From: a virus
Virus record (IMG/VR): IMGVR_UViG_3300010883_000430
Span: 1 to 25,019 of that record
DNA: 25,019 nt
Direction: 5' to 3' (one strand)
Position numbers and translations under genes: made by a program. The notes beneath the pieces are model-generated. The model ran no database searches and was not told the DNA's origin. It saw only the letters and a list, made by a program, of their open reading frames with translations. This document shows positions 16,069 to 25,019 of this stretch, piece after piece; the stretch's first letter is position 1, and every line of letters starts with the position of its first letter.

Positions 16069-16791
16069 ATGTTCGTGGACGATCCTAAGAACGAGGATCG
16101 CTCGGGTGATGGCAAGCTCCATCCATCCGCCATCAGCGGGTGCGAGCGCAACGCTATCTACTCGTCACGCGGCGAGCCCGTTAGCAACCCTCGCGACGTG
16201 CGCTTTACCCGCATCATGGGCAATGGCACTGACTACCACATCAAGCTGCAGGCCTACCTCAAGGCCACCATGCCCGGTATCATCCTCGAGCCGGCTGTCA
16301 GGTGGGGGCCTATCACTGGCCACGGTGACGCGCTGCTCCCGGTAGCGCCAGACGGTGACGAAGCGTGGGAGTACGACCTGCATGGTGACTGGTACGAACT
16401 CCAGGAATACAAAAGCATCAGCCCTAATGGCAAGCGGTACATCGCCGGAACCAAAACCAGGACCCTCAAGAGCGGAGAGGTAAAGCTCGGGCGTGAAGCG
16501 GCGCCGAAGGACGAGCATGTACTTCAGACCCGCATTTATCACTACGGCCTCACGAAGATGGGACGACGGATGACGGACACGATCCGCATCCTCTACATCG
16601 ACCGGGACGACTGGAGCACCCTCGAGTTCGAGGTGGCGCCGTGGACCGAGGAAGAGGGCAGCGAGTACCTCGAGCACATGGCTGAGTTGGAGGCTCACCT
16701 GCTCGATGGCACGCTCCCTGACCAACAGCCAGACGATTACTGGCTCTGCAAGATGTGCGCTTACCGCACGACATGTAAAGGATGGGAGTAA
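16069..16791 (+). CDS. Cas4/RecB-like PD-(D/E)XK exonuclease with Fe-S cluster
   Basis: The 240-residue product carries the RecB-family nuclease signature: H57, GHGDA with D87, ELQEYKSI with E113 and K115, and QTRIYHYG (153-160). SGCER (C25) together with C227, C230 and C236 near the C-terminus provide the four cysteines that bind a 4Fe-4S cluster in Cas4/AddB-type enzymes. It should resect dsDNA ends to give single strands for the annealing protein encoded one base downstream. Start choice is uncertain. The only strong ribosome site (AGGAGG, 16035-16040) would suit an in-frame CTG at 16045, adding the residues YQEIINK in front of the present Met. No CRISPR array or cas gene is nearby, so a CRISPR role is unlikely. 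Confidence 0.85.
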   Translation: MFVDDPKNEDRSGDGKLHPSAISGCERNAIYSSRGEPVSNPRDVRFTRIMGNGTDYHIKLQAYLKATMPGIILEPAVRWGPITGHGDALLPVAPDGDEAWEYDLHGDWYELQEYKSISPNGKRYIAGTKTRTLKSGEVKLGREAAPKDEHVLQTRIYHYGLTKMGRRMTDTIRILYIDRDDWSTLEFEVAPWTEEEGSEYLEHMAELEAHLLDGTLPDQQPDDYWLCKMCAYRTTCKGWE

Positions 16792-17559
16792 ATGTCAGCA
16801 ACACCTGAACAGATCAAGACTCTTGGAGCACCGACGCCAGCCGACGAGATCGGCACACGCCCCGCAATGGGGAGCTCTGGTGGCCTGAGCTACATCGATG
16901 CACGCTTCGTTGCACAGAGGTTCGATGACGCAGTCGGCCCTGAGAACTGGCAGGTCGACATCGTCTGGTCGGACGAGTTGAGCAAGGACGCCAAGCTCAC
17001 CAAGGCCGGCAAGGCAATGGATGGCACTGAGGCCCACGGCCGCTTCCCGATGGCACGCATCGGGGTGTCGACAGACGCCGGCTGGGTTTGGAAGATGGAC
17101 ATTGGGGACTTCTCCGACATCTCCTCGGTCAAGGGTGGCGTCAGCGATGCCATCAAGCGAGCCGCTGTCCAGTGGGGCGTAGGCCGTGACCTGTATCCGA
17201 AGCCCGCCGACAAGAACAAGCCAGCCGTGCGCCAGAAGCGCAAGGCCACGACCAAGGCGGAGGCCAAGCCTGCCATCGCACAGGCCGCCGAGAATGCAGT
17301 CGTCGGGCAGTCCGGGCTAACTGGGCCTGAGAAGGCTCAACTCTTCGAGGCCCTCAAGTCTGCCGGAGTCCCCAACGACAAGCGCAAGGACCTGGTTCAC
17401 ACCATCACCGGCAAGACCAAGACCACCGACATGACGGCTGATGACCTCGAGTTGGTGCTCGCGTTCGCTGAGAACGGCGAGTACAGCGAACATCCTGCAG
17501 AGACGCCAAGGCTATCCAACAACTTCACCCGCGCGCTGGCAGCCTCGGCCGTTACGTGA
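16792..17559 (+). CDS. Rad52-like single-strand annealing protein (Sak type)
   Basis: ATG directly after the exonuclease stop, with AAAGGA (16777-16782). In the 255-residue product, residues about 34-146 fit the Rad52/Rad22 core. This core runs from YIDARFVAQRFDDAVG with a following NWQVDI strand, through a beta-hairpin (about 84-103) and a DIGDFSD turn, to KGGVSDAIKRAAVQWGVGRDLY (the conserved GVSDAIKRA...G.Y helix). Residues 150-190 are a Lys/Ala-rich linker, and 178-235 form a small helical C-terminal domain that may bind SSB or other partners. With the upstream exonuclease it makes a phage recombination pair analogous to Exo/Beta. The helicase follows in a GTGA overlap. Confidence 0.85.
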   Translation: MSATPEQIKTLGAPTPADEIGTRPAMGSSGGLSYIDARFVAQRFDDAVGPENWQVDIVWSDELSKDAKLTKAGKAMDGTEAHGRFPMARIGVSTDAGWVWKMDIGDFSDISSVKGGVSDAIKRAAVQWGVGRDLYPKPADKNKPAVRQKRKATTKAEAKPAIAQAAENAVVGQSGLTGPEKAQLFEALKSAGVPNDKRKDLVHTITGKTKTTDMTADDLELVLAFAENGEYSEHPAETPRLSNNFTRALAASAVT

Positions 17560-21954: not shown

Positions 21955-22212
21955 GTGACTTCCGGAGTCGACAGGCACGACTGCACTTGGTATCCTGTAT
22001 CTAGGAACGAAGCCGGCGAGCCGGCACTGTGGGCCTGCGGAGTTCGCTGGCGCTGCATAAAGACTAGGTCCCTGGTCAGGGGCCAACCACCGCAGCCACA
22101 GATGCAACCGCCGACGACTGGGATCTGGGGGGACCAGGCGCCGGCACGCAGGCAGCCTGCGAAATCAATCAGACCCGTTCGGAAGCCATCTAAAGGCAGG
22201 CGGAGAAAGTAA
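21955..22212 (+). CDS. Hypothetical basic Cys-containing protein
   Basis: GTG start without a clear ribosome site, nine bases after the previous stop. The 85-residue product has HDCTWYPV, then ALWACGVRWRC with three cysteines (about residues 10, 28 and 34), which may bind metal. A Pro/Gln-rich linker and a strongly basic end (RKPSKGRRRK) follow, suggesting nucleic-acid contact. Coding status rests on open frame, position in the operon and the Cys-rich N-terminus. Confidence 0.45.
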   Translation: MTSGVDRHDCTWYPVSRNEAGEPALWACGVRWRCIKTRSLVRGQPPQPQMQPPTTGIWGDQAPARRQPAKSIRPVRKPSKGRRRK

Positions 22213-22224
22213 GGGAGGAGCTTT

Positions 22225-22824
22225 ATGAGACTACCAGAGATCCTAATCGGAGCGACGCTGGCAGCACTGATCTGTGTGCTGCTTGTACTTACTGTCGCAT
22301 CCGGCGCACTGGGCGCTCCTAACAAGGCACGGGAGTTCGCTAAGTTCACCAACATCACGCTCGAACTAGACGCTGAGATCGACGCATACGGCGAAGAGTT
22401 CGAGAAAGATAACGATCGCAGCGGACTCACCCAGCTCACCGCCGACCACATCAACCGCGTCCTCAATATCCAGACAGCCCTACTCCTCGACTCTGACCCG
22501 CACAGTTGCTTTTCCTCGGCGTATTGGAACACAGTCGGTTACATCGACGCCATCGTCCTATCGCAAGGCATGTTCCTTGCCTGGAGCGTACAAGTGCTCG
22601 GAGTCACTGCCTCTGAGGCCACGATCGAACGTGTATTCTCATTCGCGACCTACTCTGAAACCCTGTACGTAGAGTCATTCAATAAGGCACTCAAGAAGTG
22701 CGGATCACCCAAGAACTTTACCTACGCCCCGACCTCGCACGCCACTGACTCAGACATCCCTATCATCCCACCAGTGCAAGGTCCACCAGTACCGACCAAC
22801 ACACCGACACCGATAGCAGACTGA
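22225..22824 (+). CDS. Exported or membrane-anchored protein
   Basis: ATG with GGGAGGAG a few bases upstream (about 22211-22219). The 199-residue product starts with a signal-like segment: a short N-region, hydrophobic residues about 6-27, and ASGALGA (25-31) as a possible signal peptidase I site. No proper lipobox surrounds C17. The mature part is helical (36-160) with two cysteines (about 94 and 162) that could form a disulphide outside the cell. It ends in a Pro/Thr-rich tail typical of wall-spanning linkers. Placement among phage early-type genes suggests a surface role such as superinfection exclusion; this is inference. Confidence 0.7.
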   Translation: MRLPEILIGATLAALICVLLVLTVASGALGAPNKAREFAKFTNITLELDAEIDAYGEEFEKDNDRSGLTQLTADHINRVLNIQTALLLDSDPHSCFSSAYWNTVGYIDAIVLSQGMFLAWSVQVLGVTASEATIERVFSFATYSETLYVESFNKALKKCGSPKNFTYAPTSHATDSDIPIIPPVQGPPVPTNTPTPIAD

Positions 22825-23006
22825 TGGGTACGCCATGCTCATGCGACAACTGTGGAAAAGACTCAGCGATCCAGCAAGCCCGTGAGGAAGGTGCTACAGA
22901 GGAATACGAGCGCGTAAAGAAGTACGTGATAGACGAGTTCGGACTCGAAGACTGGACCGCTATCGAAAACCTAATGGCAATCGGACAACACGAAGGAGAA
23001 AACTAA
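22824..23006 (+). CDS. Small Cys-motif protein
   Basis: TGATG overlap with the previous stop. The 60-residue product starts MGTPCSCDNCGKDS, a C-x-C-x2-C cluster. A charged helix (17-37, Glu/Arg/Lys) and an acidic end follow. The three close cysteines may bind zinc in a dimer. No family recognised; coupling on both sides supports expression with its neighbours. Confidence 0.6.
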   Translation: MGTPCSCDNCGKDSAIQQAREEGATEEYERVKKYVIDEFGLEDWTAIENLMAIGQHEGEN

Positions 23007-23089
23007 TGCGCTACATCGCTTTCGTACTCGCCATCGCAGTCATCGCAGTAGCGGGGCTCATCTTGTCACCAGCCACGCACGCAGGCTAG
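23006..23089 (+). CDS. 27-residue single-TM peptide
   Basis: TAATG overlap with the previous stop, and GAAGGAG (22992-22998) seven bases before the ATG. The peptide starts MRYIAFVLAIAVIAVAGLIL and ends in SPATHAG. It is one membrane helix with a single Arg at the N-terminus and a short outer tail, or a cleavable signal-like peptide. It ends the plus-strand operon, 18 bases before the terminator. The strong ribosome site supports translation; the function is unknown. Confidence 0.6.
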   Translation: MRYIAFVLAIAVIAVAGLILSPATHAG

Positions 23090-23107
23090 CGCCTGATCGA
23101 CAAAGAG

Positions 23108-23144
23108 AAAAGCCCCGGACCAATAAGGTTCGGGGCTTTTCTTC
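23108..23144. terminator. Bidirectional intrinsic terminator
   Basis: A 14-bp stem of 23108-23121 (AAAAGCCCCGGACC) with 23127-23140 (GGTTCGGGGCTTTT), one G-U pair and loop AATAA. A-run and T-run flank the stem, so it gives a U-run on both strands. It stops the plus-strand operon ending at 23089 and the minus-strand operon ending at 23157. Confidence 0.9.
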
Positions 23145-23156
23145 GCTCGGGTCAGG

Positions 23157-23525
23157 TCATTCGTTCGTCCTTGCTACTACCAGACAGCAGCACTTCGTCT
23201 CATTGACCAAGCACAACTGCCCCTTCCTGAACGGTCCCGGCGTGGCGTCGTGGTTGGGGTGAGCGTCGATGGTCTGGGCAAGCATCCTCAATTGAACCTC
23301 GCCCATCGTCTTGATGGCCGCGAGGTAGCCCAGGTGGTACGATCTCTCGGTTGCTAGGCTTGCTTCGGCCCCCCGGTACAGGCGGGCGTGCCTGTTTTGC
23401 AATGCGCCCATGTACTCAGCGGCACGCACGTACCCAAGGTGCCGGAACTCCATGCTCTGGAGCTCGGCGTATCGTGACCGGTCAACTACCATCTCGTTCT
23501 GTTCTAGGTATTCCTTTCGGCTCAT
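23157..23525 (-). CDS. Hypothetical protein, last gene of minus operon
   Basis: ATGA overlap with the upstream gene places the start at 23525 (GAAGG seven bases before), rather than the longer frame from 23567. The 122-residue product is helical, rich in Arg, Tyr, Met and Gln. It has two stretches of alike spacing (FRHLGYVRAAEYMGALQ and SYHLGYLAAIKTMGEVQ, about residues 26-42 and 61-77), which looks like an internal helical repeat. The end has a CCC triplet (near 113-115). No family recognised. Bases 23441-23463 recur in the upstream gene 24078-24590. Confidence 0.65.
   Translation of the reverse strand: MSRKEYLEQNEMVVDRSRYAELQSMEFRHLGYVRAAEYMGALQNRHARLYRGAEASLATERSYHLGYLAAIKTMGEVQLRMLAQTIDAHPNHDATPGPFRKGQLCLVNETKCCCLVVARTNE
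23441..23463 (-). repeat. Repeat block R3, source copy
   Basis: 23 bases identical to 24106-24128. Here the segment encodes LQSMEFR in the minus-strand gene; in the other copy it is read in a shifted frame. Confidence 0.9.
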
Positions 23526-23914
23526 TTGTTGCCTTCGCTGTAGTCCCAGTTCCAGGTAGCGATCCACGGGGTCTTCTTGTCGTCACGAGTGCCAACCTCA
23601 CTGTGGTTAGGTGGGAAAACCGCCGCCTCCTCGAAGTATGGGTCGCGCTGAACTGCCGATACCTTTGGCGGCGCTCCGGGGCACTCCCCCGAGTCATCGT
23701 AAGCCAGCCCGTAGCCATCGAGTGACTCAGCGAAGTCGATCACGAGGAAGCCCTCACACTCTGAGCACCGGGCCAGCCATGCAGCAGGTGCGGCATCATG
23801 CCACCCCTGTTCCATGACGTGACCGCGCTCGATAGCCTCATCGCGGAGCCCTGAGAACCTTATCATGGAGCTCGCCTCTGCGGCTATGGCTCGAGCCCCG
23901 TACGGGTTGTTCAT
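23522..23914 (-). CDS. Hypothetical protein with CxxC motif
   Basis: ATG at 23914 (AGAAAGGA eight bases upstream) in an ATGA overlap; the longer open frame reaching 24436 is rejected because it runs through two other genes. The 130-residue product has a helical N-terminus and ERGHVMEQGWHDAAPAAWLARC (29-50, a His/Trp-rich helix). ARCSEC (48-53) with a later GEC (near 76-78) follows, suggesting zinc binding. The C-terminus is acidic with several Trp residues. No family recognised. Bases 23790-23831 recur in permuted order at 24129-24170. Confidence 0.65.
   Translation of the reverse strand: MNNPYGARAIAAEASSMIRFSGLRDEAIERGHVMEQGWHDAAPAAWLARCSECEGFLVIDFAESLDGYGLAYDDSGECPGAPPKVSAVQRDPYFEEAAVFPPNHSEVGTRDDKKTPWIATWNWDYSEGNK
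23790..23831 (-). repeat. Repeat blocks R1 and R2, source copies
   Basis: R1 (23790-23815, 26 bases) and R2 (23816-23831, 16 bases) are adjacent here. Both recur exactly at 24145-24170 and 24129-24144, also adjacent but in the opposite order and in the same orientation. Confidence 0.9.
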
Positions 23915-24081
23915 CGGTTTGATCCTTTCTTCGCTCGCTTCACTATGGCGTTGAAGACGTGCTGCGTCCTGCGGTCGCCCTTCATCCTCCGCTCCTGGGC
24001 CTCGACGAGGCGCTTGCGCTCCCGGTCTGCGGCCCGCCGGCGCACCACCATTGCCTGATGCTCTCGCTCGCCGGGGTTCAT
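23911..24081 (-). CDS. 56-residue basic helical protein
   Basis: ATG at 24081 with GGAGGAG about five bases upstream, and ATGA overlaps at both ends. The product starts MNPGEREHQAMVVRRRAADR and continues as a single long Arg/Lys/Glu-rich helix to RAKKGSNR. Charge and length suggest a nucleic-acid- or protein-binding peptide. The strong ribosome site and double coupling support it as a real gene despite its small size. Confidence 0.65.
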   Translation of the reverse strand: MNPGEREHQAMVVRRRAADRERKRLVEAQERRMKGDRRTQHVFNAIVKRAKKGSNR

Positions 24082-24590
24082 TCTTTCTCCTCCGTGAACA
24101 TAAAGGCCGGAACTCCATGCTCTGGAGCGACGTGACCGCGCTCGGCGGCATCATGCCACCCCTGTTCCATTCGCAGCCGGCATCTTGTATCTCTACTATG
24201 CTCCGCGATATGCCCTGCCCGCCCGCGCAGTCGCAACAGTACATCGGACTCGGCATCGGACGCGACGTCATACAGGTCTGCGATAACCTTTTCGACCTCG
24301 AGCTGTATGAGTTCAACCTTTTCGACCTCGAGCTGTATGAGTTCGCGGCCCTCGTCATCTCGGCGGGCTCCCGTCGTGTATGCGCTGTATGGCAACAGGA
24401 TGCCAGCCACCCGGCCCCGCGCGTCGTCTGCGTCATCGGCCCTGATGTGAACCTCTACGAGGTACCCCTTGGGTTGTTCAGGCTCAGGCGCAGCCGACGC
24501 GCTCGACTTCGTCGATAGCAGCTCGTCTTGCATGGCTTGGTATGTCGCATAGCGGATGTTGTTCATGTTCTCAGTTTCCTCGGGTGTCAT
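24078..24590 (-). CDS. Hypothetical protein with duplicated and mosaic segments
   Basis: ATG at 24590 directly follows the upstream TAG; an ATG at 24566 with GAGGAA upstream is an alternative start (MNNIRYATYQ). The 170-residue product has a helical N-terminus and an Ala/Pro linker. A beta-like segment (about 42-70) follows, then ELIQLEVEKV repeated twice (about 83-102) from a 30-bp tandem duplication. The last about 30 residues are encoded largely by the mosaic 24106-24170: MEQGWHDAA and ERGHV come from the next-but-one gene in frame, and APEHGVPA comes from the last gene in another frame. The original C-terminus was therefore replaced or extended. Confidence 0.65.
   Translation of the reverse strand: MTPEETENMNNIRYATYQAMQDELLSTKSSASAAPEPEQPKGYLVEVHIRADDADDARGRVAGILLPYSAYTTGARRDDEGRELIQLEVEKVELIQLEVEKVIADLYDVASDAESDVLLRLRGRAGHIAEHSRDTRCRLRMEQGWHDAAERGHVAPEHGVPAFMFTEEKE
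24106..24170 (-). repeat. 65-bp mosaic of three copied blocks (R3-R2-R1)
   Basis: 24106-24128 equals 23441-23463 (23 bases), 24129-24144 equals 23816-23831 (16 bases) and 24145-24170 equals 23790-23815 (26 bases). The blocks join without a spare base. All are in the same orientation, but order differs from the source region. Confidence 0.9.
24285..24344 (-). repeat. Perfect 30-bp tandem duplication
   Basis: 24285-24314 and 24315-24344 are identical. The unit is a multiple of three and encodes ELIQLEVEKV twice in the minus-strand gene, so the frame is kept. Complete identity suggests a recent slippage or unequal crossover. Confidence 0.95.
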
Positions 24591-25019
24591 CTAGTATCCG
24601 CGCTCCCAGTTCGCTGTTTTGAGGGCGATATCCCCGATGGCATCGTCGCCAAGCTCGGCGATGATGAGGCTGGCCCGGCGCCAGACCGCAGCGCCATCAG
24701 CTACCTGCTCAGCGATAACGCCGACCAAGTCTTCGTCCAGGTGCTCGGGGCCTATCAGTTCCTGGATGCTGCCGTTGGCAGCAGTCGGCGGCTGCTCGGC
24801 GATGATGTCTTCGAGGGCGGTTTCCAGGATGCCGCGATAGTCGGGCTCGAAGATGTACAGGCCACATGAGTCACAGGCCATTCCGTGGGTCTCGGTGGCG
24901 TCCACCGAGTGCAGGGGCGAGGCCTTCGTGACTTCGCCACCATCGCCGACGACTGCGAATGTGTGGCCAGTGCTGTTATACAGCACCTCGCCAGCACACT
25001 TGTCATCGTTGTGAACTAC
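24591..25019 (-). CDS. Zinc-ribbon-like protein (partial at right edge)
   Basis: The frame is open to the right edge; a GTG at 24986 is the first in-window start, but upstream codons (VVHNDDKCAGE) look coding, so the gene very likely begins outside. The visible 142 residues contain KCAGEVLYN, then HSVDATETHGMACDSCG, giving cysteines and histidines for a zinc ribbon. An acidic helical domain with ALEDIIAEQ and LVGVIAEQ-type helices follows. No family recognised. It heads the minus-strand operon seen here; its promoter is beyond the window. Confidence 0.6.
   Translation of the reverse strand, partial: VVHNDDKCAGEVLYNSTGHTFAVVGDGGEVTKASPLHSVDATETHGMACDSCGLYIFEPDYRGILETALEDIIAEQPPTAANGSIQELIGPEHLDEDLVGVIAEQVADGAAVWRRASLIIAELGDDAIGDIALKTANWERGY

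Follow-up and report, generated by a model that had tools for sequence, protein, structure and literature searches.

A 65-bp segment at the 3' end of a small phage gene consists of three exact copies from two neighboring genes

RESULTS

Gene content of the window

The window analyzed here, a virus record of 25,019 bases with linear ends, comes from an uncultured tailed phage and is probably a fragment of its genome. Head and tail genes are followed by replication and recombination genes and then by a group of small genes on the minus strand. The replication and recombination set encodes a PD-(D/E)XK nuclease, a Rad52/Erf-like single-strand annealing protein (SSAP), a DnaB helicase, endonuclease VII, SSB, and a primase-like protein, with the annealing protein gene (16792-17559) adjoining the gene of the Cas4-like PD-(D/E)XK nuclease (16069-16791). 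A strong inverted repeat at 23106-23142, with 16-nt arms, a 5-nt loop, and a T-rich end, separates the converging plus-strand genes from the minus-strand group and is probably a bidirectional terminator.

The small genes are named A to E by coordinate and are read in the direction from E to A. G001 is the related genome described below.

23157-23525, minus strand: gene A, donor of block R3; syntenic homologue in G001 (33% over 100 aa)
23522-23914, minus strand: gene B, 130 aa, donor of blocks R1 and R2; syntenic homologue in G001 (41% over 71 columns)
23911-24081, minus strand: gene C, 56 aa, with an ATGA overlap with the end of gene D; weak syntenic homologue in G001
24078-24590, minus strand: gene D, 170 aa, the recipient; no relatives detected, including in G001
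24591-25019 (open), minus strand: gene E; homologue in G001 (34%)

Read directly from the sequence, an ATGA overlap is present at each of the A/B, B/C, and C/D junctions. No protein family match was obtained for any of genes A to E.

Composition of the 65-bp patch

The sequence-only reading had described the segment at 24106-24170 as three copied blocks in permuted order, and this composition is exact. The segment equals 23441-23463 (23 bp), 23816-23831 (16 bp), and 23790-23815 (26 bp) joined in that order, with 65 of 65 positions identical and no bases left over at the joins.

24106-24128, minus strand: R3 copy, 23 bp identical to 23441-23463 in the same DNA orientation as the donor; APEHGVP in gene D
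24129-24144, minus strand: R2 copy, 16 bp identical to 23816-23831; ERGHV in gene D
24145-24170, minus strand: R1 copy, 26 bp identical to 23790-23815; MEQGWHDAA in gene D
23441-23463, minus strand: R3 donor within gene A, LQSMEFRH; aligns without gaps to the G001 homologue
23790-23831, minus strand: R1 and R2 donor, one 42-bp stretch of gene B, ERGHVMEQGWHDAA; aligns without gaps to the G001 homologue

None of the blocks can be lengthened by even one base without a mismatch, and the internal joins have neither shared nor unassigned bases. Both joins are blunt (CTGGAGC/GACGTG and GCGCTCG/GCGGCA, the slash marking the join), neither donor running on into the other. All three blocks are in direct orientation, and the donors lie 0.3 to 0.7 kb from the recipient site. 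The R1 and R2 donors abut at 23815/23816, and the R2 and R1 copies together (24129-24170) form exactly one circular permutation, at offset 26, of the 42-bp unit 23790-23831.

The reading frames were likewise as first described: R1 (MEQGWHDAA) and R2 (ERGHV) are read in gene D in the same frame as in gene B, and R3 is read in a new one, giving APEHGVP in gene D versus LQSMEFRH in gene A. Since the frame of R3 is not kept and silent positions are identical, the blocks were copied at the DNA level and do not reflect selection for a peptide. The same facts bear on the idea that the blocks represent a conserved functional motif or a small mobile element common to the three genes. The frame retained by R1 and R2 is what such an element would predict; the frame change of R3, DNA identity that includes silent positions, the absence of R1 from all other viral contigs, and the lack of any protein family match for genes A to E all argue against it, and we regard it as very improbable.

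Chance and the repeat background

Chance origin of the blocks is excluded. In simulations under an order-3 Markov model with a 14-bp cutoff, the longest repeat per simulated window was 14 to 19 bp or fell below the cutoff, and never exceeded 19 bp; an independent-base estimate gives approximately 7e-6 expected repeats of at least 23 bp and 1e-7 of at least 26 bp. The 16-bp block by itself is expected 0.09 times anywhere in 25 kb, so that its match alone could be due to chance. Its placement exactly between the R1 and R3 copies, with a donor that abuts that of R1, is not chance; exact abutment of the R1 and R2 donors has a chance of approximately 0.5% if both were drawn independently from gene B.

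The four longest direct repeats in the window (30, 26, 23, and 16 bp) each have a copy in gene D, and the next longest is 15 bp. Thus, the search for similar block copies proposed in the sequence-only reading returned R1, R2, R3, and a 30-bp tandem duplication and no other direct repeat longer than 15 bp in the 25 kb. Comparable abutting, nontandem copied blocks were absent from approximately 376 kb of other phage, viral, and related contig DNA, an AT-rich locus containing a repeat array (L005) having been set aside from this comparison. Abutting pairs of 14 to 15 bp in GC-rich genomes were rejected as parallels; their donors lie many kilobases away, and they look like chance matches.

Relatives and the direction of copying

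A search of viral contigs with gene B, gene D, primase, capsid, and helicase identified a single usefully related genome, G001 (IMGVR_UViG_3300037071_000430; 48,698 bases, with 126-base end repeats), whose helicase, primase, and endonuclease VII are 58 to 60% identical to those of the window. Homologues of genes A, B, and E, and weakly of gene C, occur in G001 in the same order and on the same strand. Both donor blocks align without gaps to their G001 counterparts, that in gene A as RYAELQSMEFRHLGY against RLLELLAKEKHHDGY and that in gene B as AIERGHVMEQGWHDAAPAAWLARC against TIALGHDLTPESPDGERGQYIAYC, which indicates that the donor stretches are native to these genes. No significant homologue of gene D was found in G001 (best E value, 0.05), where its slot is filled by other genes. 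With the donors native and gene D undetected in the relative, we conclude that genes A and B served as the source of the copies and gene D as the recipient, and the 65/65 identity indicates that the copying was recent. The comparison with related phages that had been suggested to find the ancestral form thus came down to one relative, in which the donors appear in their ancestral state. A close relative carrying gene D as it stood before the event was not among the genomes found.

Elsewhere, nothing in the phage collection matched 22000-25019 at the DNA level or the products of genes A, B, and D at the protein level, exact R1 was absent from other viral contigs, and genome contigs gave two remote primase matches only. 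R1 is also not among the listed repeats of at least 16 bp in G001. Copies of the blocks were thus found in neither the viral contigs nor the phages nor the relative, which speaks against the old conserved motif family that the sequence-only reading had named as the finding that would overturn it.

The slot itself is variable. Comparison of L004 7039-9826, from the relative, with window positions 23911-25019 places other genes between the C and E homologues, where the window has only gene D; one of these genes resembles a small glycosyltransferase.

Gene D as the recipient

Gene D is an open frame of 170 codons with coding-like composition upstream of the patch, and it carries a second change.

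24285-24344, minus strand: perfect, in-frame tandem duplication of 30 bp in gene D, ELIQLEVEKV twice; the longest direct repeat in the window

The patch and the duplication together fall within approximately 240 bp of the 513-bp gene D. The replacement tail is approximately 22 residues long. A pure 65-bp insertion would imply that the frame of gene D ran into gene C without a stop before the event, so that the event must also have removed bases or altered the frame; in view of the ATGA overlaps at adjacent junctions, we think that it deleted some of gene D as well. In the predicted structure (mean pLDDT, 45.9), the N-terminal part is modestly folded and the C-terminal part, including the patch, is of very low confidence (pLDDT of about 30), consistent with a new tail that is tolerated because it is probably disordered. 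Viral fold matches to this model were not meaningful.

Two independent-looking changes within approximately 240 bp of one gene, and none elsewhere in 25 kb, raise the alternative that gene D attracts such changes, as a hotspot or a target of diversification, the 65-bp patch and the 30-bp duplication having arisen as separate copying events through mutation bias or selection. The changes number only two, a sensitive search of gene D for older, diverged block copies found none above the level of control genes, and no reverse transcriptase or recombinase-site pattern was seen. A diversity-generating retroelement would combine template and variable repeats with a nearby reverse transcriptase; no reverse transcriptase family was detected among the genes scanned, a subset of the open reading frames of this fragment contig. 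We consider a hotspot quite unlikely. Overall, the searches gave no sign of a mobile element or a motif family, nor, among the genes scanned, of programmed diversification.

DISCUSSION

The segment at 24106-24170 is probably genuine and was probably copied into gene D recently, at the DNA level, from its neighbors A and B. The proposal that an event at the DNA level gave gene D a new C terminus is thus supported, and it was most likely a one-off, single event. We suggest that filler DNA, namely, 23 bp of gene A followed by a 42-bp piece of gene B with its halves swapped, sealed a break in the 3' portion of gene D. The pieces may have been captured and ligated rather than copied by template switching, in which case the 42-mer would have been cut once and religated in swapped order or would have passed through a small circle, and the frame would have been left open with a replacement tail of approximately 22 residues. 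The phage Rad52-like annealing protein, PD-(D/E)XK nuclease, endonuclease VII, and SSB, or host end joining, are candidate actors only; none of the genes identified here encodes Ku or LigD.

The principal competitor differs from this reading in submechanism only. In serial template switching of the FoSTeS/MMBIR type, the nascent strand would leave gene D, copy R1, R2, and R3 or the reverse, and return. Short, direct blocks in series from nearby donors have the general look of replication-based complex rearrangements, the process is well described in Escherichia coli (PMC2621351), and the sequence that follows R2 shows a loose similarity, at 6 of 10 positions, to the start of R1. However, MMBIR junctions typically have 2 to 5 bp of microhomology and E. 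coli lac amplification junctions have 2 to 15 bp (PMC2621351), whereas both internal joins of the patch share zero bases; moreover, template switching offers no reason for the strand to switch back and to end after exactly one 42-bp period. The sequence-only reading had offered template switching or a tandem R1R2R1R2 intermediate. The former is possible but, given blunt internal joins without microhomology, is not favored, and we judge it rather unlikely; the latter gives the observed block order, but taking exactly one 42-bp period from it would be a coincidence.

A circularized or religated 42-bp fragment, in contrast, yields exactly one 42-bp period directly. Because of the blunt joins and the permuted 42-mer, we favor fragment capture over microhomology-driven template switching, a tentative preference that stops short of even confidence. 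The fully specified version, in which a 42-bp gene B fragment was circularized or cut and religated before being captured, along with a second fragment, at a break in the phage DNA, is doubtful on present evidence; if true, it shows that blunt end joining enables phages or their hosts to make new protein termini out of captured fragments of their own DNA shorter than 50 bp.

An artefact would take the form of a chimeric library molecule or an amplification chimera carried into the contig. It draws some weight from the single uncultured contig, with no independent copy found, and from the concentration of the four longest direct repeats in one 513-bp gene. A de Bruijn assembly joins sequences that share no bases only if the reads contain the join, and the blunt joins here thus argue against one made by the assembler; the frame also stays open and ends in an ATGA overlap like those of the neighboring gene junctions. 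Chimeras of MDA are inverted in >85% of cases and primed at 2 to 21 nt of complementarity in >70% (PMC1855051), but all three blocks here are direct, with blunt internal joins. Thus, the assembly artefact that had been raised from the outset is unlikely at the assembler level, a chimeric low-coverage molecule being possible, and we rate an artefact of either kind as distinctly improbable.

Among known systems, the patch most resembles the filler DNA, or templated insertions, at end-joined double-strand breaks, which is known best from plants, primates, and other eukaryotes. As there, short pieces of nearby DNA stand serially, as exact copies, end to end at one site; they come from within 0.7 kb, with the donors retained and the recipient derived. 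The patch differs from filler DNA in being in a phage, in its blunt internal joins, in the exact circular permutation of the 42-bp unit, and in having no known induced break. It shares discontinuous local duplications in series with MMBIR/FoSTeS but has no microhomology at its internal joins, much shorter blocks, and none inverted. The 30-bp duplication in gene D is of the ordinary kind known from illegitimate recombination and tandem duplication in phages and bacteria. The blunt joins of the patch fit recombination independent of short homology, whereas the combination of two donors in permuted order at one site departs from ordinary illegitimate recombination and tandem duplication. Most likely, the patch belongs to an established class of mutation, complex templated or captured-fragment insertion (filler DNA), of which it is an exceptionally clean example, and is not a new system. 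A literature search did not find a phage precedent of exactly this form, which does not show that there is none.

If real, the patch is a base-precise snapshot of small, fast-turnover phage genes gaining new coding ends through local copying or capture of tens of bases, without homologous exchange between phages. With its blunt joins and permuted 42-mer, it can serve to test end joining against template switching in phages.

All three donor blocks start at a T/G step (23440/23441, 23789/23790, and 23815/23816), with GGT/GC at two of them. This was noticed post hoc and could reflect chance or a cleavage preference.
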